Under the pieces are notes generated by a model. That model did no database searches and was not told where the DNA came from. It saw only the letters and a program-made list of their open reading frames with translations. The translations under genes and the position numbers were made by a program. 40,448 bases of DNA, taken from NCBI GenBank assembly GCA_006218055.1, contig VBWD01000014.1, positions 1-40,448 on the forward strand, read 5' to 3'. The DNA comes from Gallionellaceae bacterium. GTDB taxonomy: Bacteria; Pseudomonadota; Gammaproteobacteria; Burkholderiales; Gallionellaceae. Every line of letters starts with the position of its first letter. Within the stretch, counting starts at the first letter, position 1. Positions 6,827-29,079 of the stretch are shown here, in pieces.

Positions 6827-8632
6827 ATGTTGACACAATTCTTTTCGCAATTTGTGCAATCGAGCCGCTGGCTCTCCATCGCCATGCTGGCTTTCTTGCA
6901 CGCAGCATTTTGGATGGGTATCGATAGCGCTTGGGCGCGGCCGCTCCTTTTGGCGCATCTTGGATTGTTCATGCTGTGGCAACCTCTGTGGCGTAGCGAG
7001 GCCAGGCTGAGTTGGGGCAACTCTGCGCTCATTTTGCCCCTTAGTTTAAGTGCGCTCTTGTGGCTGAACTGGTGGGTGTTGGCTTTTTGGGTCAGCGGAT
7101 TGTTCGCCTTGGTCGGAGGCCGGGTTTTTACCTTCCACTCACGTTGGCAGCGGGCGTTCTATTTGTTCCTGATGACGTACCTGTTGGCGGTGCTGTTGCT
7201 ATACATCGCGCCACACCTGTTTGGATTGCCAGACTTTCACGAAGTTACAAACAACCTCCTTAACTTCGGACTTCCATTTTTGCTGCTCATCATGGCAGTA
7301 CTACCCATCGAGCGAGATGCCTCGGACAACGTGCAGGCGGTGGATTTTATCTATGTCTTGCTGCTGTTCACCCTGCTCATCCTCCTTATATTAGGCAGTT
7401 TGGCTTTTATGACTTTAGGGCGTGTCGAATACTTGGTTGCCTTGCTACGCACCCTGTTCTTGCTGGGCGCGGCATTGATGGTGTTGGGCGTGCTGTGGAG
7501 TCCGCGCTTGGGCTTTTCAGGCTTGCAAGCCAGTTTTTCGCGCTATGTCCTCTCCATCGGTACGCCGCTGGAAGAGTGGTTGAAGCAGATTGCCCTAGCC
7601 GCCCAGCAGGAGCAGAATCCCGCCACCTTTCTTGAGCACGCGACTAACTATTTGATCGAGATGCCTTCCATCTCTGGCATATCTTGGTGGTGTGCAGAAG
7701 GTCATGGCGACTCGGGTGTGTCCAGTCACTACCGGGTCGAGCTGGAGGAAGGGGATCTGGTATTGACCTTGTTCACTCACAAGAGCGTCTCGCCGACCGT
7801 GTTATTGCACATGAAACTGCTGGTTCAGGTGCTGGGCCATTTCTATCAGGCCAAGCGTCGTGAGCAACGCCTGCGCGAGATGACGCGTCAGCAAACCATC
7901 TACGAGACAGGCGCGCGCCTGACGCATGATCTCAAGAACATGCTGCAATCCCTGTTCGCGCTCACCTCCGTTGCGCAGCACGATTCTGCAAAAGCCCAGC
8001 CCATCCTAAAGAACCAGCTACCCGTCCTCACCCAACGCATCGAATCGCTACTAGCCAAACTCAAAGCGCCAGGAGAAGACGAGGAAGAAATCAAGATGCC
8101 GCTCTCTACGTGGTGGGAGAGCGTAAAGCAGCGTAATCAGCATCGGGATATCGAATGGGTGACGGGCGATGGGAAAACCAGCCCTCACCCTAACCCTCTC
8201 CCAGAGGGCAAGGGAATCAGAGCTGTGGGAGCGACATCAAGCCCCTCGCCCTACGGGAGAGGGGTTGGGGTGAGGGAAACATCGTCAAAACCTTCACCTA
8301 TCCATGCCAACACCCAACTCATCCCCGCCCCCATGTTCGACTGCGTACTCGACAACCTATTAGAGAACGCCAGCAACAAACGCCTGCGCGAGTCAGGTAT
8401 CCGTATTGAAGTAAGGCTCACCGCTGAGCCATTGGGGTTGGAAGTACGCGATACCGGTAGCGCCGTGCCCAAAGGTATTGCGCGCAACCTACTGCGCACC
8501 GTCGTGCCTTCAGAAGATGGCTTGGGCGTCGGCATGTACCAAGCCGCCCGCTGGGCACAACAGATGGGCTATCGTTTGACGCTTAAAGAGAATCGCGAAG
8601 GAGCGGTCAGATTCGAGCTGAAGCCAGCGTAA
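6827..8632 (+). CDS. Membrane sensor histidine kinase with an in-frame repeat insertion
   Basis: A 601-residue protein. About residues 10-225 form several hydrophobic helices, a linker follows, and the phosphoacceptor box THDLKNMLQSL lies near residue 365. The ATP-binding N box (DNLLENAS) is near residue 508 and a GLGVGMYQAARWA G2-type motif near 565. The DLKN form of the H box resembles the PrsK-type kinases of PEP-CTERM/exosortase systems more than the HEIRNP box of PilS. Between the two catalytic modules, about residues 452-484, is a translated copy of the palindromic repeat found in hrpA (8182-8277). No response regulator gene follows. It is divergent from the sigma-54-driven pilin-like gene, so it may govern that gene, but this is speculative. 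Confidence 0.9.
   Translation: MLTQFFSQFVQSSRWLSIAMLAFLHAAFWMGIDSAWARPLLLAHLGLFMLWQPLWRSEARLSWGNSALILPLSLSALLWLNWWVLAFWVSGLFALVGGRVFTFHSRWQRAFYLFLMTYLLAVLLLYIAPHLFGLPDFHEVTNNLLNFGLPFLLLIMAVLPIERDASDNVQAVDFIYVLLLFTLLILLILGSLAFMTLGRVEYLVALLRTLFLLGAALMVLGVLWSPRLGFSGLQASFSRYVLSIGTPLEEWLKQIALAAQQEQNPATFLEHATNYLIEMPSISGISWWCAEGHGDSGVSSHYRVELEEGDLVLTLFTHKSVSPTVLLHMKLLVQVLGHFYQAKRREQRLREMTRQQTIYETGARLTHDLKNMLQSLFALTSVAQHDSAKAQPILKNQLPVLTQRIESLLAKLKAPGEDEEEIKMPLSTWWESVKQRNQHRDIEWVTGDGKTSPHPNPLPEGKGIRAVGATSSPSPYGRGVGVRETSSKPSPIHANTQLIPAPMFDCVLDNLLENASNKRLRESGIRIEVRLTAEPLGLEVRDTGSAVPKGIARNLLRTVVPSEDGLGVGMYQAARWAQQMGYRLTLKENREGAVRFELKPA
8182..8277. repeat. BIME-like GC-rich palindromic repeat, copy R1 (inside the histidine kinase)
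   Basis: The left module CCCTCACCC...CTCCCAGAGGG and the right module CCCCTCGCCC...GGGGTGAGGG are near reverse complements joined by a linker of about 25 bases. It is read in frame as SPHPNPLPEGKG ... YGRGVGVRE. The same unit recurs five times in hrpA. Confidence 0.9.
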
Positions 8633-12286: not shown

Positions 12287-15200
12287 ATGAATCCCGCACT
12301 ATCCAACATCGCACAGCGTCGTCTGGCGCGTATCCAACAACTCTCCGCAATCGAATATCCCGCTGATTTGCCTGTGGTGGCGCGGCGTGAGGATATTGCG
12401 CAGGCTATCGAGAAGCATCAGGTCGTCATCGTGTGTGGTGAGACGGGGTCGGGTAAGACCACGCAATTGCCCAAGATATGTTTGAGCTTGGGGCGTGGTG
12501 TGTTGGGCGTGATTGGACATACCCAACCTCGACGTGTGGCGGCGCGTTCGGTGGCGGCACGCATCGCGCAAGAATTGAAATCCGAATTGGGTGGGTTGGT
12601 CGGCTACAAGGTGCGCTTCAACGACAAGGTATCGCCCGACACCTGCATCAAGCTGATGACCGACGGTATTTTGCTGGCCGAGATCCATCACGATCCACTG
12701 CTGAAGAACTACGACACGATCATCATCGACGAAGCGCACGAACGCTCGCTCAACATCGATTTCCTGTTGGGTTATCTACGCCAATTGCTGCCGCGTAGGC
12801 CCGACTTGAAGGTCATCATCACCTCGGCGACGATTGATGCGGAAAGGTTTGCGAAGCATTTTGCAGCAAGCTCCCTCACCCCAGCCCTCTCCCAGAGGGA
12901 GAGGGTGTTAGTGCAGAGTGAAGGGGTTAGCCCCTCGCCCTCTGGGAGAGGGGTTGGGGTGAGGGAGAGTTCTTCAACCATTCCAGAAACACTCCTTACA
13001 CATGCGCGAGAATTGCGCAAAAATTCAACAGATGCAGAGCAGCTACTGTGGAATTTGCTGCGCGATCGTCAGGTGCTCGATTCCAAATTCCGTCGCCAGC
13101 ACCCGCTTGGTTCATACATCCTAGATTTTTATTGCCACGAAGCGAAACTTGCCATTGAACTGGATGGCGGCCAGCATGGTGACGATGCGCAACTGAAGCA
13201 TGATGAAAAGCGCAGTGTTTGGCTGAAAGAGCAGGGAATCACTGTGCTGCGATTCTGGAATAACGAAGCATTGGCGAACACGGAAGGGATGCTTCATGTT
13301 GTGTATGAGTGGTTGAGCGCAAATGGTCCAGCTTCAAAACCTTCCCTCACCCCAACCCCTCTGATGGAACTACTAGCCAATCGACTAAGCCCGCAAGCGG
13401 GCAAGTCGCTGGTTATCCCAGAGGGCGAGGGGCTAAAACCCGCCCCCATCATCCAAGTCTCCGGTCGCACCTATCCGGTCGAGGTGCGCTACCGACCACC
13501 GCAGCAGAACGAAGAAGGCGATACGCAGGACGTGCCGCAGGCGATCTGTAGCGCGTTGGATGAACTATCCATCGGTGGCTTGCGCGGCGACGTGCTGGTG
13601 TTCCTGCCCGGCGAGCGCGAGATACGCGACACCGCCGAGGCGTTGCGCAAGCATCAGCATAAAGGCATCGAGATATTGCCCTTGTATTCGCGCCTTTCCA
13701 TCGCCGAGCAGGATAGGGTGTTTAAACCTGCTGCGGGTATGCGCCGTGTGGTGCTGGCCACCAACGTGGCGGAGACTTCGCTCACTGTGCCGAATATCGG
13801 TTATGTCATCGACAGTGGCTTGGCGCGCATCAATCGCTACAGCGTGCGGCAGAAGGTGGAGCAGTTGCGCATCGAGAACATCGCGCGCGCGGCAGCCAAT
13901 CAACGTGCAGGGCGTTGCGGTCGCGTGATGAGCGGCATCTGCATCCGTCTCTACGAGGAGGCAGATTTTCTGTTGCGCCCCGAGTTCACCGATGCGGAGA
14001 TTTTCCGAGTGTCGTTGGCGACGGTCATTTTGCGTATGAGTGCGTTAGGTCTCGGAGAGGTAGAGGCATTTCCATTCATCGAGCCGCCCGGTTCGCGTGC
14101 CATCGCCGATGGCTATCAATTACTGATTGAGTTGGGGGCGATTGCTGAGAGTGTTCCCTCACCCCAACCCCTCTCCCAAAGGGCGAGGGGCTTTGAACAA
14201 GCGCGGACTAAACTCCCTCTCCCACTGGGAGAGGGCTGGGGTGAGGGAACACTCCCTGCAAAAACCAACACTCGCCAACTCACCCCCCTCGGTCACGAAC
14301 TCGCCAAGTTGCCGCTCGATCCCAAGGTGGCGCGCTTGCTGTTGGCGGGGCGGCAATATCACTGTCTGAACGAGATCCTCATCATTGCCAGTGCCTTGGC
14401 GCTGCAAGACCCGCGTGACCGCCCCGCAGAGCGCCGTGAAGCCGCTGATGCCGCGCATCTGCGTTTCAATGACGAGCGCTCGGATTTCCTCGCCTACATC
14501 AAATTGTGGGCGTGGTTCCAAGAGGCCATTAAGCATAAGAAGAGTAATAAATTGTGGGCGCAGGAATGCCGCGAGAAGTTTTTGTCGCCCATTCGTTTGC
14601 GCGAGTGGCATGAGTTGCATCAGCAGTTGCATGCACAGGTGAGCGAGATGGGGTTGTTTGGGGTGGGCGCTTCGTCGAACAAGGATTCCCTCACCCCAAC
14701 CCCTCTCCCAAAGGGCGAGGGGCTAAAAACAGAGCGCCACTCTAGCTCCCTCTCCCCCGGGGAGAGGGCTGGGGTGAGGGAACACTCTATCAAAGTGAAG
14801 TCGCTCGTCGAGTCCTCTCAACCTGCCACCTACGAACAAATCCACAAAGCCCTGCTCACCGGCCTGCTCGGCAACATCGGTTGCCGCTCCACCAGCGAGC
14901 CGCACTACCTCGGTCCGCGCGAGATCAAGTTCTTCATCGCGTCGAATTCGGTGTTGGCAAAGAAGGGGGCGAAGTGGGTGTTCGCGGCGGAGATCGTGGA
15001 GACCACCAAGTTGTTCGCACGCTGTATGGCGCGTATCGAACCGGAATGGCTGGAAGAGGTGGGCGCACATCTCATCAAGCGTAGCTATTTCGACGCGCAC
15101 TGGGAGAAGAAGGCGGCGCAGGTGGCGGCGTGGGAGCGCAGCACGCTGTTCGGATTGCTCATCAACCCCAAGAAGCGTGTGCATTACGGGCCGATGAATC

Positions 15201-16930
15201 CGCAAGAGTCGCGTGAGGTGTTCATCCGCCAGGCGCTGGTGAACGGTGAGTTCAATACCCTCGCGCCGTTCTTTGCGCACAACCAAAAGATGATCGAAGA
15301 CATCGAGGCGTTGGAACATAAATCGCGCCGTCCCGATGTGTTGGTGGATGACGAACTCATCTTCGCGTTCTACGACGCTCGCATCCCCGCAGGTATGCAC
15401 AACGGCGCCGCCTTTGAGAAATGGCGCAAGGAAGCGGAGCGCGAGCAGCCAAAGTTGCTGTACCTCAAAAAAGACGATTTGATGCGCCACGAGGCGGCAG
15501 GCATCACCACCGAACAGTTCCCGCCGCAGATGTTGATGAACAACGTGAGCTACGCGCTGGCGTATAACTTCGCTCCCGGCAAGAGCGACGACGGCGTGAC
15601 GCTCACCGTGCCGCAAGCCTTGCTGAATCAGGTGTCGGTGGCGCGCTGCGAATATCTGGTGCCGGGGGTGCTGGCGGAGAAGGTGGCACAGCTGGTGAAG
15701 TCGCTGCCGCAGAAATTGCGCCGCAACTGTGTGCCTGTGCCCGAATTCGCCACCTTCTTTGTGGGGACGGTGAAGCCATCCGATACGCCGTTGTTGCAAG
15801 CCTTGGCGCGTTTCATCCGTGAGCAAAGGCAGGTCGAGGTGCCTTTGGATGCGTTCCGCTTGGAACAGTTGCCGCCCCATCTGCTGATGAACTTCCGCGT
15901 GGTGGATGAGCATGGAAGACAATTGGGGATGTCGCGCAATTTTGCGGCGTTGCGGGGGGAGTGGGCGATTTCAACGAGCCCTCCCTCACCCCCCGCCCTC
16001 TCCCGTGGGGAGAGGGGGCCAGATCGGCGCGTTGATTCTAACCCCTCGCCCTCTGGGAGAGGGGTTGGGGTGAGGGAAGATTTGAAGCGCTCAGTTAGCT
16101 GGGACTTCGGCGATTTCTCTGCGACCCGCACCGAGCAACGCGCAGGCCAGACCATCACGGTGTTCAACGCTTTGGTGGATGAAGGCGATGCGGTGAGCTT
16201 GCAGAGTTTCGATACACGCGAGGAAGCACAGGCGGTGCATCGTGCCGGTCTGCGTCGTTTGTTCATGCTGGCGCTGAAAGAGCAGGTGAAGTATCTGGAG
16301 AAGAATCTGCCCGGTTTGCAAGCGATGGCGATGCAGTTCTTGCCTTTCGGTTCGCAACAGGACTTGCAGCGGCAGATCATCGTGGTGACCTTCGATCGTT
16401 GCTCGCTCAACGAGCCGTGGCCGGAGACTGAGAAGGCTTTCACCGAGCGGTGCAAGGATGCCAAGGGAAGATTGAATCTGGTGGCGCAGGAGATCACGCG
16501 CTTGGTCGCGGCGGTGCTGGCCGACCACCATACTTTGCAGAAAACCTTGCCCCAGTTCAAAGCGCATACGCAGGTATTGCAAGACATTAGAAACCAGTGC
16601 GAATGGCTATTGGGTAAGGAGTGGGTGGGGCGCACGCCCTACGAGCGTATGCAGCACATGCCGCGTTATCTGAAGGCCATCAATGTACGGCTGGAAAAAT
16701 TGAAAGCGAATCCGGCACGTGATGCACAGAATATGGCGCAGCTGAATCCGCTGTTGCAGCAATGGGGGCGCAAGCTGTCTGCACAGCAGGGCGAAGTGGA
16801 TGCGCGGCTGACGGACTTCGGGTGGATGGTGCAGGAGTTGCGCGTGTCGTTGTTCGCGCAGGAATTGAAGACGCCCGTCATCGTTTCCGTCAAACGATTG
16901 GAGAAGATGCTGGCGGAGATGAGCAGGTAG
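12287..16930 (+). CDS. hrpA: ATP-dependent RNA helicase HrpA with in-frame repeat and DUF559 insertions
   Basis: A 1547-residue DEAH-box helicase. Walker A GETGSGKT is at residues 51-58, DEAH near 148 and TSATID near 179. The second RecA domain resumes with PIIQVSGRTYPVEVRYRP near residue 386 and includes QRAGRCGR near 538; the HA2, OB and HrpA-specific C-terminal regions follow. HrpA remodels mRNA and ribosomes. Five copies of a GC-rich palindrome (R2-R6) are translated in frame, all between conserved blocks. Between R2 and R3 a DUF559 domain of about 110 residues is also translated. Removing the extra segments leaves roughly 1260 residues, close to the normal 1300. The frame is open throughout, so a product is possible, but the 190-residue insert between the two RecA domains may disturb activity. 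Confidence 0.92.
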   Translation: MNPALSNIAQRRLARIQQLSAIEYPADLPVVARREDIAQAIEKHQVVIVCGETGSGKTTQLPKICLSLGRGVLGVIGHTQPRRVAARSVAARIAQELKSELGGLVGYKVRFNDKVSPDTCIKLMTDGILLAEIHHDPLLKNYDTIIIDEAHERSLNIDFLLGYLRQLLPRRPDLKVIITSATIDAERFAKHFAASSLTPALSQRERVLVQSEGVSPSPSGRGVGVRESSSTIPETLLTHARELRKNSTDAEQLLWNLLRDRQVLDSKFRRQHPLGSYILDFYCHEAKLAIELDGGQHGDDAQLKHDEKRSVWLKEQGITVLRFWNNEALANTEGMLHVVYEWLSANGPASKPSLTPTPLMELLANRLSPQAGKSLVIPEGEGLKPAPIIQVSGRTYPVEVRYRPPQQNEEGDTQDVPQAICSALDELSIGGLRGDVLVFLPGEREIRDTAEALRKHQHKGIEILPLYSRLSIAEQDRVFKPAAGMRRVVLATNVAETSLTVPNIGYVIDSGLARINRYSVRQKVEQLRIENIARAAANQRAGRCGRVMSGICIRLYEEADFLLRPEFTDAEIFRVSLATVILRMSALGLGEVEAFPFIEPPGSRAIADGYQLLIELGAIAESVPSPQPLSQRARGFEQARTKLPLPLGEGWGEGTLPAKTNTRQLTPLGHELAKLPLDPKVARLLLAGRQYHCLNEILIIASALALQDPRDRPAERREAADAAHLRFNDERSDFLAYIKLWAWFQEAIKHKKSNKLWAQECREKFLSPIRLREWHELHQQLHAQVSEMGLFGVGASSNKDSLTPTPLPKGEGLKTERHSSSLSPGERAGVREHSIKVKSLVESSQPATYEQIHKALLTGLLGNIGCRSTSEPHYLGPREIKFFIASNSVLAKKGAKWVFAAEIVETTKLFARCMARIEPEWLEEVGAHLIKRSYFDAHWEKKAAQVAAWERSTLFGLLINPKKRVHYGPMNPQESREVFIRQALVNGEFNTLAPFFAHNQKMIEDIEALEHKSRRPDVLVDDELIFAFYDARIPAGMHNGAAFEKWRKEAEREQPKLLYLKKDDLMRHEAAGITTEQFPPQMLMNNVSYALAYNFAPGKSDDGVTLTVPQALLNQVSVARCEYLVPGVLAEKVAQLVKSLPQKLRRNCVPVPEFATFFVGTVKPSDTPLLQALARFIREQRQVEVPLDAFRLEQLPPHLLMNFRVVDEHGRQLGMSRNFAALRGEWAISTSPPSPPALSRGERGPDRRVDSNPSPSGRGVGVREDLKRSVSWDFGDFSATRTEQRAGQTITVFNALVDEGDAVSLQSFDTREEAQAVHRAGLRRLFMLALKEQVKYLEKNLPGLQAMAMQFLPFGSQQDLQRQIIVVTFDRCSLNEPWPETEKAFTERCKDAKGRLNLVAQEITRLVAAVLADHHTLQKTLPQFKAHTQVLQDIRNQCEWLLGKEWVGRTPYERMQHMPRYLKAINVRLEKLKANPARDAQNMAQLNPLLQQWGRKLSAQQGEVDARLTDFGWMVQELRVSLFAQELKTPVIVSVKRLEKMLAEMSR
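12873..12965. repeat. BIME-like palindromic repeat, copy R2 (hrpA, left of the DUF559 cassette)
   Basis: A complete left-plus-right unit: CCCTCACCCCAGCCCTCTCC ... GGAGAGGGGTTGGGGTGAGG. It is read in frame as SLTPALSQRER ... SPSPSGRGVGVRE. Its right arm contains AGAGGGG (12947-12953), then 5 bases and a GTG (12959), which could start translation of the DUF559 segment alone. Confidence 0.92.
12959..13330 (+). mobile_element. DUF559 endonuclease-like cassette inserted in frame in hrpA
   Basis: From the in-frame GTG at 12959 the translation begins VRESSSTIPETLLTHARELR and continues with TDAEQLLWNLLRDR, KFRRQHPLGSYILDFYC and LAIELDGGQH, ending near YEWLSANG. This is the full DUF559 domain, a small Vsr/PD-(D/E)xK-like nuclease fold, with the D in ILDFYC and the E in AIELDGGQH as the expected metal ligands. 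DUF559 normally occurs as a stand-alone protein of about 120 residues and is not part of HrpA. Here it is framed by repeat copies R2 and R3 and interrupts hrpA exactly between RecA domains 1 and 2. It may be made as part of HrpA, independently from the GTG, or both. Confidence 0.8.
13344..13434. repeat. Half copy of the palindromic repeat (R3), with a second palindrome nested in it
   Basis: The left module only: CCCTCACCCCAACCCCTCT, then an unrelated insert, then CCCAGAGGGCGAGGGGC. Without the insert it matches the left halves of R4 and R5. It bounds the DUF559 cassette on the right. Confidence 0.85.
13374..13415. repeat. Second palindromic element nested inside R3
   Basis: The left arm TAGCCAATCGACTAAGCCCGC and the right arm GCGGGCAAGTCGCTGGTTA pair over about 18 positions with a 2-base loop and small mismatches. 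It adds a frame-preserving segment read as part of MELLANRLSPQAGKSLVIP. Confidence 0.7.
14156..14247. repeat. BIME-like palindromic repeat, copy R4 (hrpA)
   Basis: A complete unit, CCCTCACCCCAACCCCTCTC ... GGGAGAGGGCTGGGGTGAGG. It is read in another frame than R1 and R5: SPQPLSQRARG ... LPLPLGEGWGEGT. It lies between YQLLIELGAI and LTPLGHELAKLP, a loop position in HrpA. Confidence 0.92.
14688..14780. repeat. BIME-like palindromic repeat, copy R5 (hrpA)
   Basis: A complete unit read as SLTPTPLPKGEG ... LSPGERAGVRE. It interrupts a poorly conserved linker after VSEMGLFGVG and before the YEQIHKALLTGLLGNIG block. Confidence 0.92.
15983..16076. repeat. BIME-like palindromic repeat, copy R6 (hrpA)
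   Basis: A complete unit read as PSPPALSRGERG ... NPSPSGRGVGVRED. It lies between the RNFAALRGEW block and the VSWDFGDF block of the HrpA C-terminal region. Confidence 0.92.
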
Positions 16931-28994: not shown

Positions 28995-29079
28995 GGGCAT
29001 GGCAAGCTGCCACACCTAATAATGAAACTCGCCATGCCCATTTCCCCCTATCCAACTTTCCCCCGCAAGCGGGAGAAAG
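28995..29079. repeat. Two palindromes between the MarC-family and pseudouridine synthase genes
   Basis: GGGCATGGC (28995-29003) pairs with GCCATGCCC (29031-29039). CTTTCCCCCGC-AA-GCGGGAGAAAG forms a hairpin at 29056-29079, 25 bp past the MarC stop. The second resembles the CTCCCGCAAGCGGGAG repeat common in proteobacteria. Confidence 0.65.

Follow-up and report, generated by a model that had tools for sequence, protein, structure and literature searches.

A DUF559 nuclease domain between inverted intrastrand-triplex motifs in hrpA: a candidate for a small mobile unit

The helicase gene hrpA of a Gallionellaceae bacterium carries, in frame between the two RecA domains of its product, a nuclease domain of the DUF559 family with inverted repeats on either side. 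The gene lies on contig VBWD01000014.1 of assembly GCA_006218055.1, of which the whole stretch analysed here, 40,448 nucleotides in length, is referred to as the window. Based on comparison with related and distant genomes, the insert is probably a copy of a mobile unit of approximately 0.45 kb in which DUF559 would be the enzyme and two mutually inverted intrastrand-triplex motifs (TMs) the ends (TM–DUF559–inverted TM). Mobility is suggested by the existence of empty, solo and loaded sites, by the presence of the cassette in several host genes and by the unit-like behaviour of repeat and enzyme. For DUF559, we infer its role in the unit by association, namely from the flanking repeats, the nature of the triplex motif, the co-variation of ends and enzyme, the repeat counts of genomes and the features of the enzyme itself. 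RAYT transposases were first tied to REP sequences by association in the same way.

The insert in hrpA and the identity of its repeats

In the window, hrpA is one uninterrupted open frame coding for a DEAH-box helicase of 1547 amino acids (Table 1). The order of Pfam matches in its product includes DEAD, DUF559 (amino acids 237–343; E 2.9e-35), Helicase_C, HA2_C, OB_NTP_bind and DUF3418. Comparison with relatives whose allele is empty gives the insert a length of 191 residues; this value and the Pfam order agree with the original prediction, made from the window sequence alone, of about 190 extra residues between the RecA domains. The same prediction described the insert as DUF559 between two repeats. 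This framing was borne out, but the right-hand repeat (13343–13437), while forming one unit, is not intact because a 54-bp palindrome, which had been missed, is nested inside it. Since the palindrome splits the repeat, the latter does not appear among the ten motifs that a TM scan detected in the window, eight of which are located within hrpA. When folding as single-stranded DNA was compared with that of dinucleotide shuffles, the pair on the left and the three solo ones in hrpA (folded as 14154–14250, 14686–14782 and 15981–16078) scored 5.6–7.9 standard deviations better, and the split right copy 4.4 standard deviations better; the repeats in hrpA exceed chance expectation.

Many copies of the repeat fit the formula CCCTCNCCC N3-6 GGGNGAGGG N3 GGGNGAGGG, which has been printed for the triplex motif of E. 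coli (PMC4666352), and others keep the plan with changed arms. By this sequence rule the repeat can be assigned to the class of G/C-rich intrastrand-triplex motifs (boxC/PIT/TM), an identity that went unrecognised in the original prediction, where the repeats figured as a GC-rich palindrome family. In our scan, a TM consisted of a pyrimidine arm, a purine arm and a third strand with G-G, A-A or A-T triads, with at most one mismatch allowed in each. The third strands of 715 perfect hairpins formed 6.21 of nine triads, as compared with 5.58 after tails had been swapped between elements (maximum of 500 swaps, 5.67). Because many of these hairpins are related, the corresponding figure for 35 distinct arms is the fairer one (6.26 triads versus 5.33 after swaps; maximum 5.83). 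The third strand thus changes along with the arm between taxa. For the E. coli motif, triplex folding was demonstrated in vitro (PMC4666352).

Repeats and DUF559 as a candidate unit

The association of TMs with DUF559 was assessed in elements of the same bacterial family, in named loci and in a phylum sample (genomes and fetched loci are denoted by G and L numbers, respectively). The named loci are the best 80 of at least 573 found and not a random sample; their record titles point to Pseudomonadota, Chloroflexi, Gastranaerophilales, Nitrospirota, Desulfobacterales, Aminicenantes, Patescibacteria and others. The phylum sample consists of 29 loci, the best match per genome; 200 genomes had been drawn, and 68 of them had a match. 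Family matches above 88 bits that were left unfetched are G080:C89, G027:C2, G045:C261 and G097:C92, in addition to 12 weaker ones, and seven weak fetched rows (L092–L098) are below the 60-bit limit. Since L055 is identical with L099, family counts of 122–125 rows hold one duplicate, which is absent from the counts of 121 elements and from the orientation analysis; furthermore, L285 repeats L197, and L193 repeats L085.

For the flank score, the left flank (250 bp) was aligned locally with the reverse-complemented right flank and the best match taken, with a minimum flank of 60 bp in the test against spaced positions in the family, 100 bp in the comparison with open reading frames, and 120 bp in the triplex and orientation scans. 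At a score of at least 20, inverted flanks were present at 89/124 DUF559 genes of the family versus 33/919 spaced control positions. The respective values were 64/79 versus 112/892 for named loci and 19/29 versus 23/87 for the phylum sample, where spaced positions evidently score more often by chance. Other open reading frames of 90–400 amino acids in the same loci provide a second control: inverted flanks were found at 88 of 122 DUF559 genes versus 3 of 161 such frames in the family, at 63/76 versus 8/158 in the named loci, and at 19/29 versus 4/24 in the phylum sample. None of 26 scored true Vsr genes of the same family had inverted flanks with a score of 18 or more.

A similar picture emerged when TMs themselves were counted within 160 bp of the DUF559 domain. 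At least one side carried a TM in 115/121 family elements (89/95 of the free-standing ones), 70/76 named elements and 18/29 elements of the phylum sample, and both sides did so in 73, 52 and 10 elements, respectively. Counted by side, these were 188/242, 122/152 and 28/58. TMs were detected in 35/1467 and 5/300 single control windows of equal length elsewhere in the same loci, and in none of 24 Vsr genes within 160 bp. The association is weaker phylum-wide than in the family and named sets. Taken together, these data suggest that the repeats frame DUF559 in general and in many phyla. The possibility raised in the original prediction, that DUF559 is the enzyme partner of the palindrome family, thereby receives support from this enrichment, which extends to DUF559 genes elsewhere, and from the empty sites described below.

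Repeats and enzyme also behave as one entity. The nearest two motifs were mutually inverted in 120 of the 134 elements with a motif on both sides (64/73, 48/52 and 8/9). In genomes with multiple elements, the left end matched best the right end of its own element in 43 of 53 elements with a flank score of at least 18 (two ties). Among elements with scores of at least 20, similarity of the ends tracked identity of the DUF559 proteins, with rho 0.62 for 61 family elements outside shared hosts (permutation maximum 0.15) and rho 0.34 for 59 named elements (permutation maximum 0.18); all 300 permutations remained below the observed values. Part of this co-variation stems from whole elements sharing a common descent. 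The four dispersed copies in G052 are 83–98% alike inside, depending on the segment compared, and near 35% in their flanks. Another subfamily is represented by eight copies, of which two occupy the same site; in these copies, homology runs from the outer edge of the left hairpin to the outer edge of the right one.

At the genome level, two motif patterns yielded a median of nine matches in the 72 family genomes with DUF559 and of zero in the 28 without it (Mann-Whitney, 2e-6), the counts including flanks of the DUF559 genes themselves. Repeat number correlated with DUF559 overall (rho 0.61) and in genera g1 (rho 0.63) and g12 (rho 0.68). Reversed patterns as a control gave values near zero for pattern C; pattern A is nearly mirror-symmetric, so that its reversal was uninformative.

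Proteins of the DUF559 family generally go by the label uncharacterised or Vsr-like, and the Pfam title gives their function as unknown. Alignment columns D45, E56, D58 and H62 are invariant across 38 relatives; the aligned columns were preferred to a regular expression for the active site, which missed 5/124 and 6/109 rows, some of them through over-strictness. A structure model of the domain (pLDDT 87, pTM 0.79) had as its nearest neighbours in fold searches a solved DUF559 protein (3hrl), followed by the homing endonuclease I-Bth0305I (Foldseek E 1.3e-4, TM score 0.70; VIA Z 11.5, 2.9 Å over 91 residues) and E. coli Vsr (Foldseek E 0.11; VIA Z 10.0 for 1cw0, 2.2 Å over 96 residues, and 9.6). 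The value for TnsA of Tn7 (Z 6.6) is too low to weigh; high scores in the fold searches were also obtained for mitoribosome chains, and a search of a defence library returned a match to DpdF (E 7.7e-8 over 51 residues). Enterotoxin B chains, retrieved by a sequence search of the PDB (E 0.0029 and up), were taken as chance matches, and neither fold search has them among its 50 listed rows. The Vsr family (PF03852) was not among the Pfam matches of the window protein at E ≤ 0.001. Kinship of YcjD, the DUF559 protein of E. coli, with Vsr is already in print (PMC1189080), and a DUF559 protein of Caulobacter has been studied as the mismatch-repair-like VsrA (PMC12907096). Median pairwise dN/dS (nonsynonymous over synonymous substitution rates) was 0.05–0.11 in five DUF559 groups (126/306 pairs usable) and 0.05–0.08 for embedded copies among unsaturated pairs, and the domain is therefore kept under selection as a protein, inside hosts too. 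Between the ends in the window, DUF559 is the only Pfam match and thus no known transposase was seen there, a systematic search for transposases beside the units not having been made. An intein model is likewise missing from the Pfam matches of the window protein, whose reading frame is continuous; both points argue against carriage by a self-splicing intron or intein (no search for Rfam introns was made).

The insertion site between the RecA domains (site 1) can be followed through the family, as hrpA is present in 96/100 genomes. Of 30 loci fetched, 28 were readable across the site: 16 are empty, nine contain DUF559 and three contain other inserts, namely a repeat pair alone in G041, a single repeat in G099 and an unrelated insert in G037. 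The empty site is a stretch of 31 residues. The same insertion is thus not shared by all HrpA orthologues, and the site is empty even in G046, whose RecA2 protein sequence is 98% identical to that of the window. Loaded G050 and empty G057 share 90.8% DNA identity over RecA2, the highest value for G050 among the genomes compared. In a second hrpA linker, a solo pair is found in the window, and DUF559 occupies the place in two further genomes. In metG, 29 of 30 loci could be read at the linker that precedes the tRNA-binding domain; it contains DUF559 in two, repeat-coded peptides in four and neither in 23. When empty and filled hrpA alleles were compared by eye, no clear target-site duplication was seen, the alleles differing by extra residues beside the repeats.

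Inserts of other kinds were noted at the same positions. In L184 (G037), the exact site used by DUF559 in hrpA holds a third kind of insert, KQPPNVGASLLANDGVEKIASKLAPTY. The second linker contains, in L172 (G057) and L188 (G078), palindromes of the form GTCATTCC..GGAATGAC that resemble REPs of the CGTC type. This linker appears to accept several unrelated palindromic elements.

DUF559 had been regarded as normally a separate small protein. This does not always apply: 26 family elements, that of the window included, lie in frame within a recognisable host gene, that is, hrpA (14; 12 at site 1 and two at site 2), metG (5), MmeI-like restriction genes (5), hsdM (1) and trpC (1). The hosts were called by Pfam for the window and six others and by BLAST or reading for the rest, a few being cut by a contig end. 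Among the named loci, too, DUF559 occurs in long frames that by eye read like metG (L211, L217), hsdM (L194, L197) and others. In a tree of 125 rows (one duplicate), all in-frame copies except that in trpC fall into one clade of 34 rows (support 90/91, below the star limit of the tool), which includes nine free-standing copies. The metG copies, the MmeI copies and a second MmeI-like group each form one clade, and so do the hrpA copies, with two subtypes. Eight of the nine free-standing relatives (L111, L115, L117, L120, L122, L123, L127 and L129) are located at one shared site, which by eye reads like the hypD/hypE junction.

The ycjD gene of E. coli K-12 MG1655 is annotated as DUF559, and a motif is located approximately 167 bp from it (1351204–1351239) that is listed as number 9 of the 23 motifs tabulated in the published survey. 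By our own arithmetic, based on 18 motif sites in 4.64 Mb, a motif would lie so near by chance with a probability of roughly 0.003. A degenerate hairpin overlaps the end of ycjD. The gene was found in 3365 of 5426 genomes, the motif-bearing spacer (at least 80% covered) in 3350, and some part of the spacer in 5100. In two records with a match to fabI that is broken off, an efflux operon adjoins fabI; this operon has been named eefRABCD, and ycjD was reported in the same place where eef is absent (PMC12817139). Correspondingly, ycjD with the triplex motif and eefRABCD alternate between E. coli lineages as occupants of one place in the fabI–sapF interval (L362–L366). In two other E. coli records an insertion sequence is present beside or inside ycjD.

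Mechanism, alternatives and known systems

We propose that, when the unit is exposed as single strand (on the lagging strand or during repair or transcription), its end would fold into a hairpin, with the purine tail folding back as third strand. DUF559, with its fold of the Vsr and homing-endonuclease type, may recognise and cut the folded end, and host repair would then transfer the unit to another location. Solo repeats and repeat pairs could be short non-autonomous derivatives moved in trans. One subclade would tolerate life inside genes, ends and enzyme being read through in linkers, for example of hrpA and metG, and because of this in-frame read-through the host protein could survive without splicing.

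Several observations weigh against a mobile unit of this kind. In vivo footprints in E. coli were reported without a stable triplex (PMC4666352). In genus g8 (19 genomes) the number of repeats is unrelated to DUF559, in g15 (8 genomes) no significant link was seen, and motif matches are still present in 9 of 28 family genomes without DUF559. Conversely, TMs are absent within 160 bp in 11/29 phylum-sample and 6/121 family elements, and for ycjD the motif is found on one side only, with none on the other side in the stretch read. Matches to the motif-bearing part of the ycjD spacer persist in many E. coli genomes from which the complete spacer is missing. Such genomes seem to keep the motif elsewhere, so the enzyme would not be needed for keeping old copies. 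No target-site rule was found for the insertions, and since the solo pairs of the window have outward tails while most cassettes have inward ones, the solo pairs are not simple deletions of cassettes. Given that the metG and MmeI-like copies are each one clade and that the hrpA copies together form another, the in-frame hosts may count as few events. Finally, three of the four G052 copies (L141, L142, L149 and L151) share on each side approximately 30–45 bp beyond the TM, including an outer inverted repeat TCTATGTGA..AGTGGGT, and this subfamily may therefore ride in a larger element.

A possible though less probable explanation, which corresponds to the second option of the original prediction, is that the motifs spread by other means, and that DUF559, as a homing-type endonuclease, cuts resident motifs, is copied into them by repair and thus ends up between two of them. 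This would account for the loaded and solo forms at the same linkers (hrpA site 1, the second hrpA linker and metG) and for the varying number of motifs around DUF559 at one site, and the nearest solved structure outside DUF559 is indeed that of a homing endonuclease. However, the dispersed copies with unrelated flanks and with homology starting at the outer hairpin edge look like movement of whole units. Moreover, because CGTC-like palindromes are also taken up by an hrpA linker in G057 and G078, shared sites may only mark tolerant linkers.

We consider it unlikely that DUF559 is a host or defence nuclease travelling as a passenger between repeats moved by another transposase. The outer inverted repeat in G052, the motif matches in E. 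coli genomes devoid of the ycjD spacer and the study of the Caulobacter protein as VsrA (PMC12907096) would fit such a role, but the flanks are specific to DUF559 when compared with other open reading frames and with true Vsr genes, enzyme and ends co-vary, and the association occurs in many phyla with differing motif sequences. An old fusion, by which HrpA gained a useful nuclease domain kept by selection, is very improbable and was rejected: the insert is in frame and open with low dN/dS, and the hrpA copies form one clade, yet the majority of readable hrpA loci, the close relative G046 among them, are empty, and the same cassette is found at two sites in hrpA and in metG, MmeI-like, hsdM and trpC genes.

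The candidate unit of TMs and DUF559 belongs to none of the known mobile-element families tested. Its ends share the motif plan and the third-strand rule with the boxC/PIT/TM repeats, and inverted pairs occur in both. The E. coli repeats, however, were reported to be always intergenic and without a mobility gene, whereas the repeats described here frame DUF559 and lie in frame in genes, and their arm and third strand vary together between taxa. The authors of the boxC/PIT/TM survey linked the motif to genome instability and reported neither a mobility gene nor a tie to functions of flanking genes (Holder 2015, PMC4666352). By analogy, the unit may work like a REPtron. In REP/REPIN-RAYT systems, an enzyme gene is likewise placed between inverted palindromes, inverted pairs are dispersed, the repeat type follows the enzyme type and some repeats are located in genes (PMC3733652). 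The enzyme of REPtrons is an HUH (Y1) tyrosine transposase, in contrast to the Vsr/EDxHD-like DUF559 with its fold of the PD-(D/E)XK/Vsr type. REPtrons also have a GTAG tag at the end of the repeat, which by eye is missing at the hairpin foot of the DUF559 ends, and only the latter possess a third, triplex-type arm.

The EDxHD homing endonuclease I-Bth0305I has the closest solved fold outside DUF559, and genes of this type likewise reside inside other genes; it differs by an extended DNA-binding region (PMC3943268) which is absent from DUF559, and DUF559 is framed by repeats. The mismatch endonuclease Vsr has the same fold as DUF559, but true Vsr genes are without such flanks. Rickettsia palindromic elements resemble the repeats described here in lying inside genes, many of them for DNA repair or RNA binding, but are of another sequence type, with a CGTC tag in RPE-4 and RPE-6; a survey of tagged REPs reported no dedicated transposase for CGTC repeats and closed by asking which proteins accompany untagged palindromes (PMC3733652). 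Among the matches listed by a search of the open-access literature, no paper joined DUF559 or YcjD with these triplex repeats.

A mobile unit of repeat and DUF559 would represent a new kind of very small mobile element. The chances are about even that TM repeats and DUF559 constitute a class of very small self-mobile elements present in many phyla, the ends of which are recognised as folded three-stranded DNA and one lineage of which lives intein-like in important genes without splicing; this would explain the origin of boxC/PIT in E. coli. The triplex repeat has long been known and was hitherto unexplained. Joining it with DUF559 makes the questions of repeat and enzyme testable together in E. 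coli K-12, with small material (a protein of 117 residues and an oligonucleotide of 36 nucleotides). If it is true that the enzyme reads a DNA triplex, this would be a novel means by which a mobile element marks its ends.

Further features of the window

Coordinates of hrpA, its insert and the remaining motifs are compiled in Table 1.

Table 1. Features of hrpA, its DUF559 insert and intrastrand-triplex motifs (TM) in the window
Feature	Position	Strand	Basis
hrpA host gene	12287..16930	+	open throughout
HrpA RecA domain 1 (Pfam DEAD, aa 38-184)	12398..12838	+	Pfam
TM, left pair, outer unit	12873..12905	-	triplex scan, repeat search
Left terminal repeat: TM beside DUF559, hairpin then purine tail towards gene	12931..12965	+	triplex scan, repeats, folding
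DUF559 domain, predicted Vsr/EDxHD-like nuclease fold, in frame; D45, E56, D58, H62 kept	12995..13315	+	Pfam, alignment
Right terminal TM, inner piece (tail and hairpin start)	13343..13361	-	repeat families D4, I15
Small palindromic element nested in right TM	13362..13415	.	palindrome, folding
Right terminal TM, outer piece	13416..13437	-	repeat families D5, I22
HrpA RecA domain 2 (Pfam Helicase_C, aa 432-547)	13580..13927	+	Pfam
Solo inverted TM pair in frame in hrpA; several relatives empty there	14156..14247	.	triplex scan, folding
Solo inverted TM pair, hrpA linker; DUF559 there in two other genomes (L074, L076)	14688..14780	.	triplex scan, comparison
Solo inverted TM pair in frame in hrpA	15983..16076	.	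triplex scan, folding
Single TM elsewhere in window	8242..8276	+	triplex scan
Single TM elsewhere in window	29043..29079	-	triplex scan

In the genome of the window, another DUF559 gene (L003; G000:C73) is located between repeats at 1370–1480 and 1840–1960 of that locus. These look like a different palindrome family, AAATCCCTCC..CCTCCC..GGGAGG, and other repeat types may thus have DUF559 partners. The palindrome nested in the right-hand repeat has a 31-base core whose pattern matches seven times in its own genome (at most three mismatches). The same palindrome interrupts hrpA repeats in G050, G036 and G041, as if hairpin repeats were its target.

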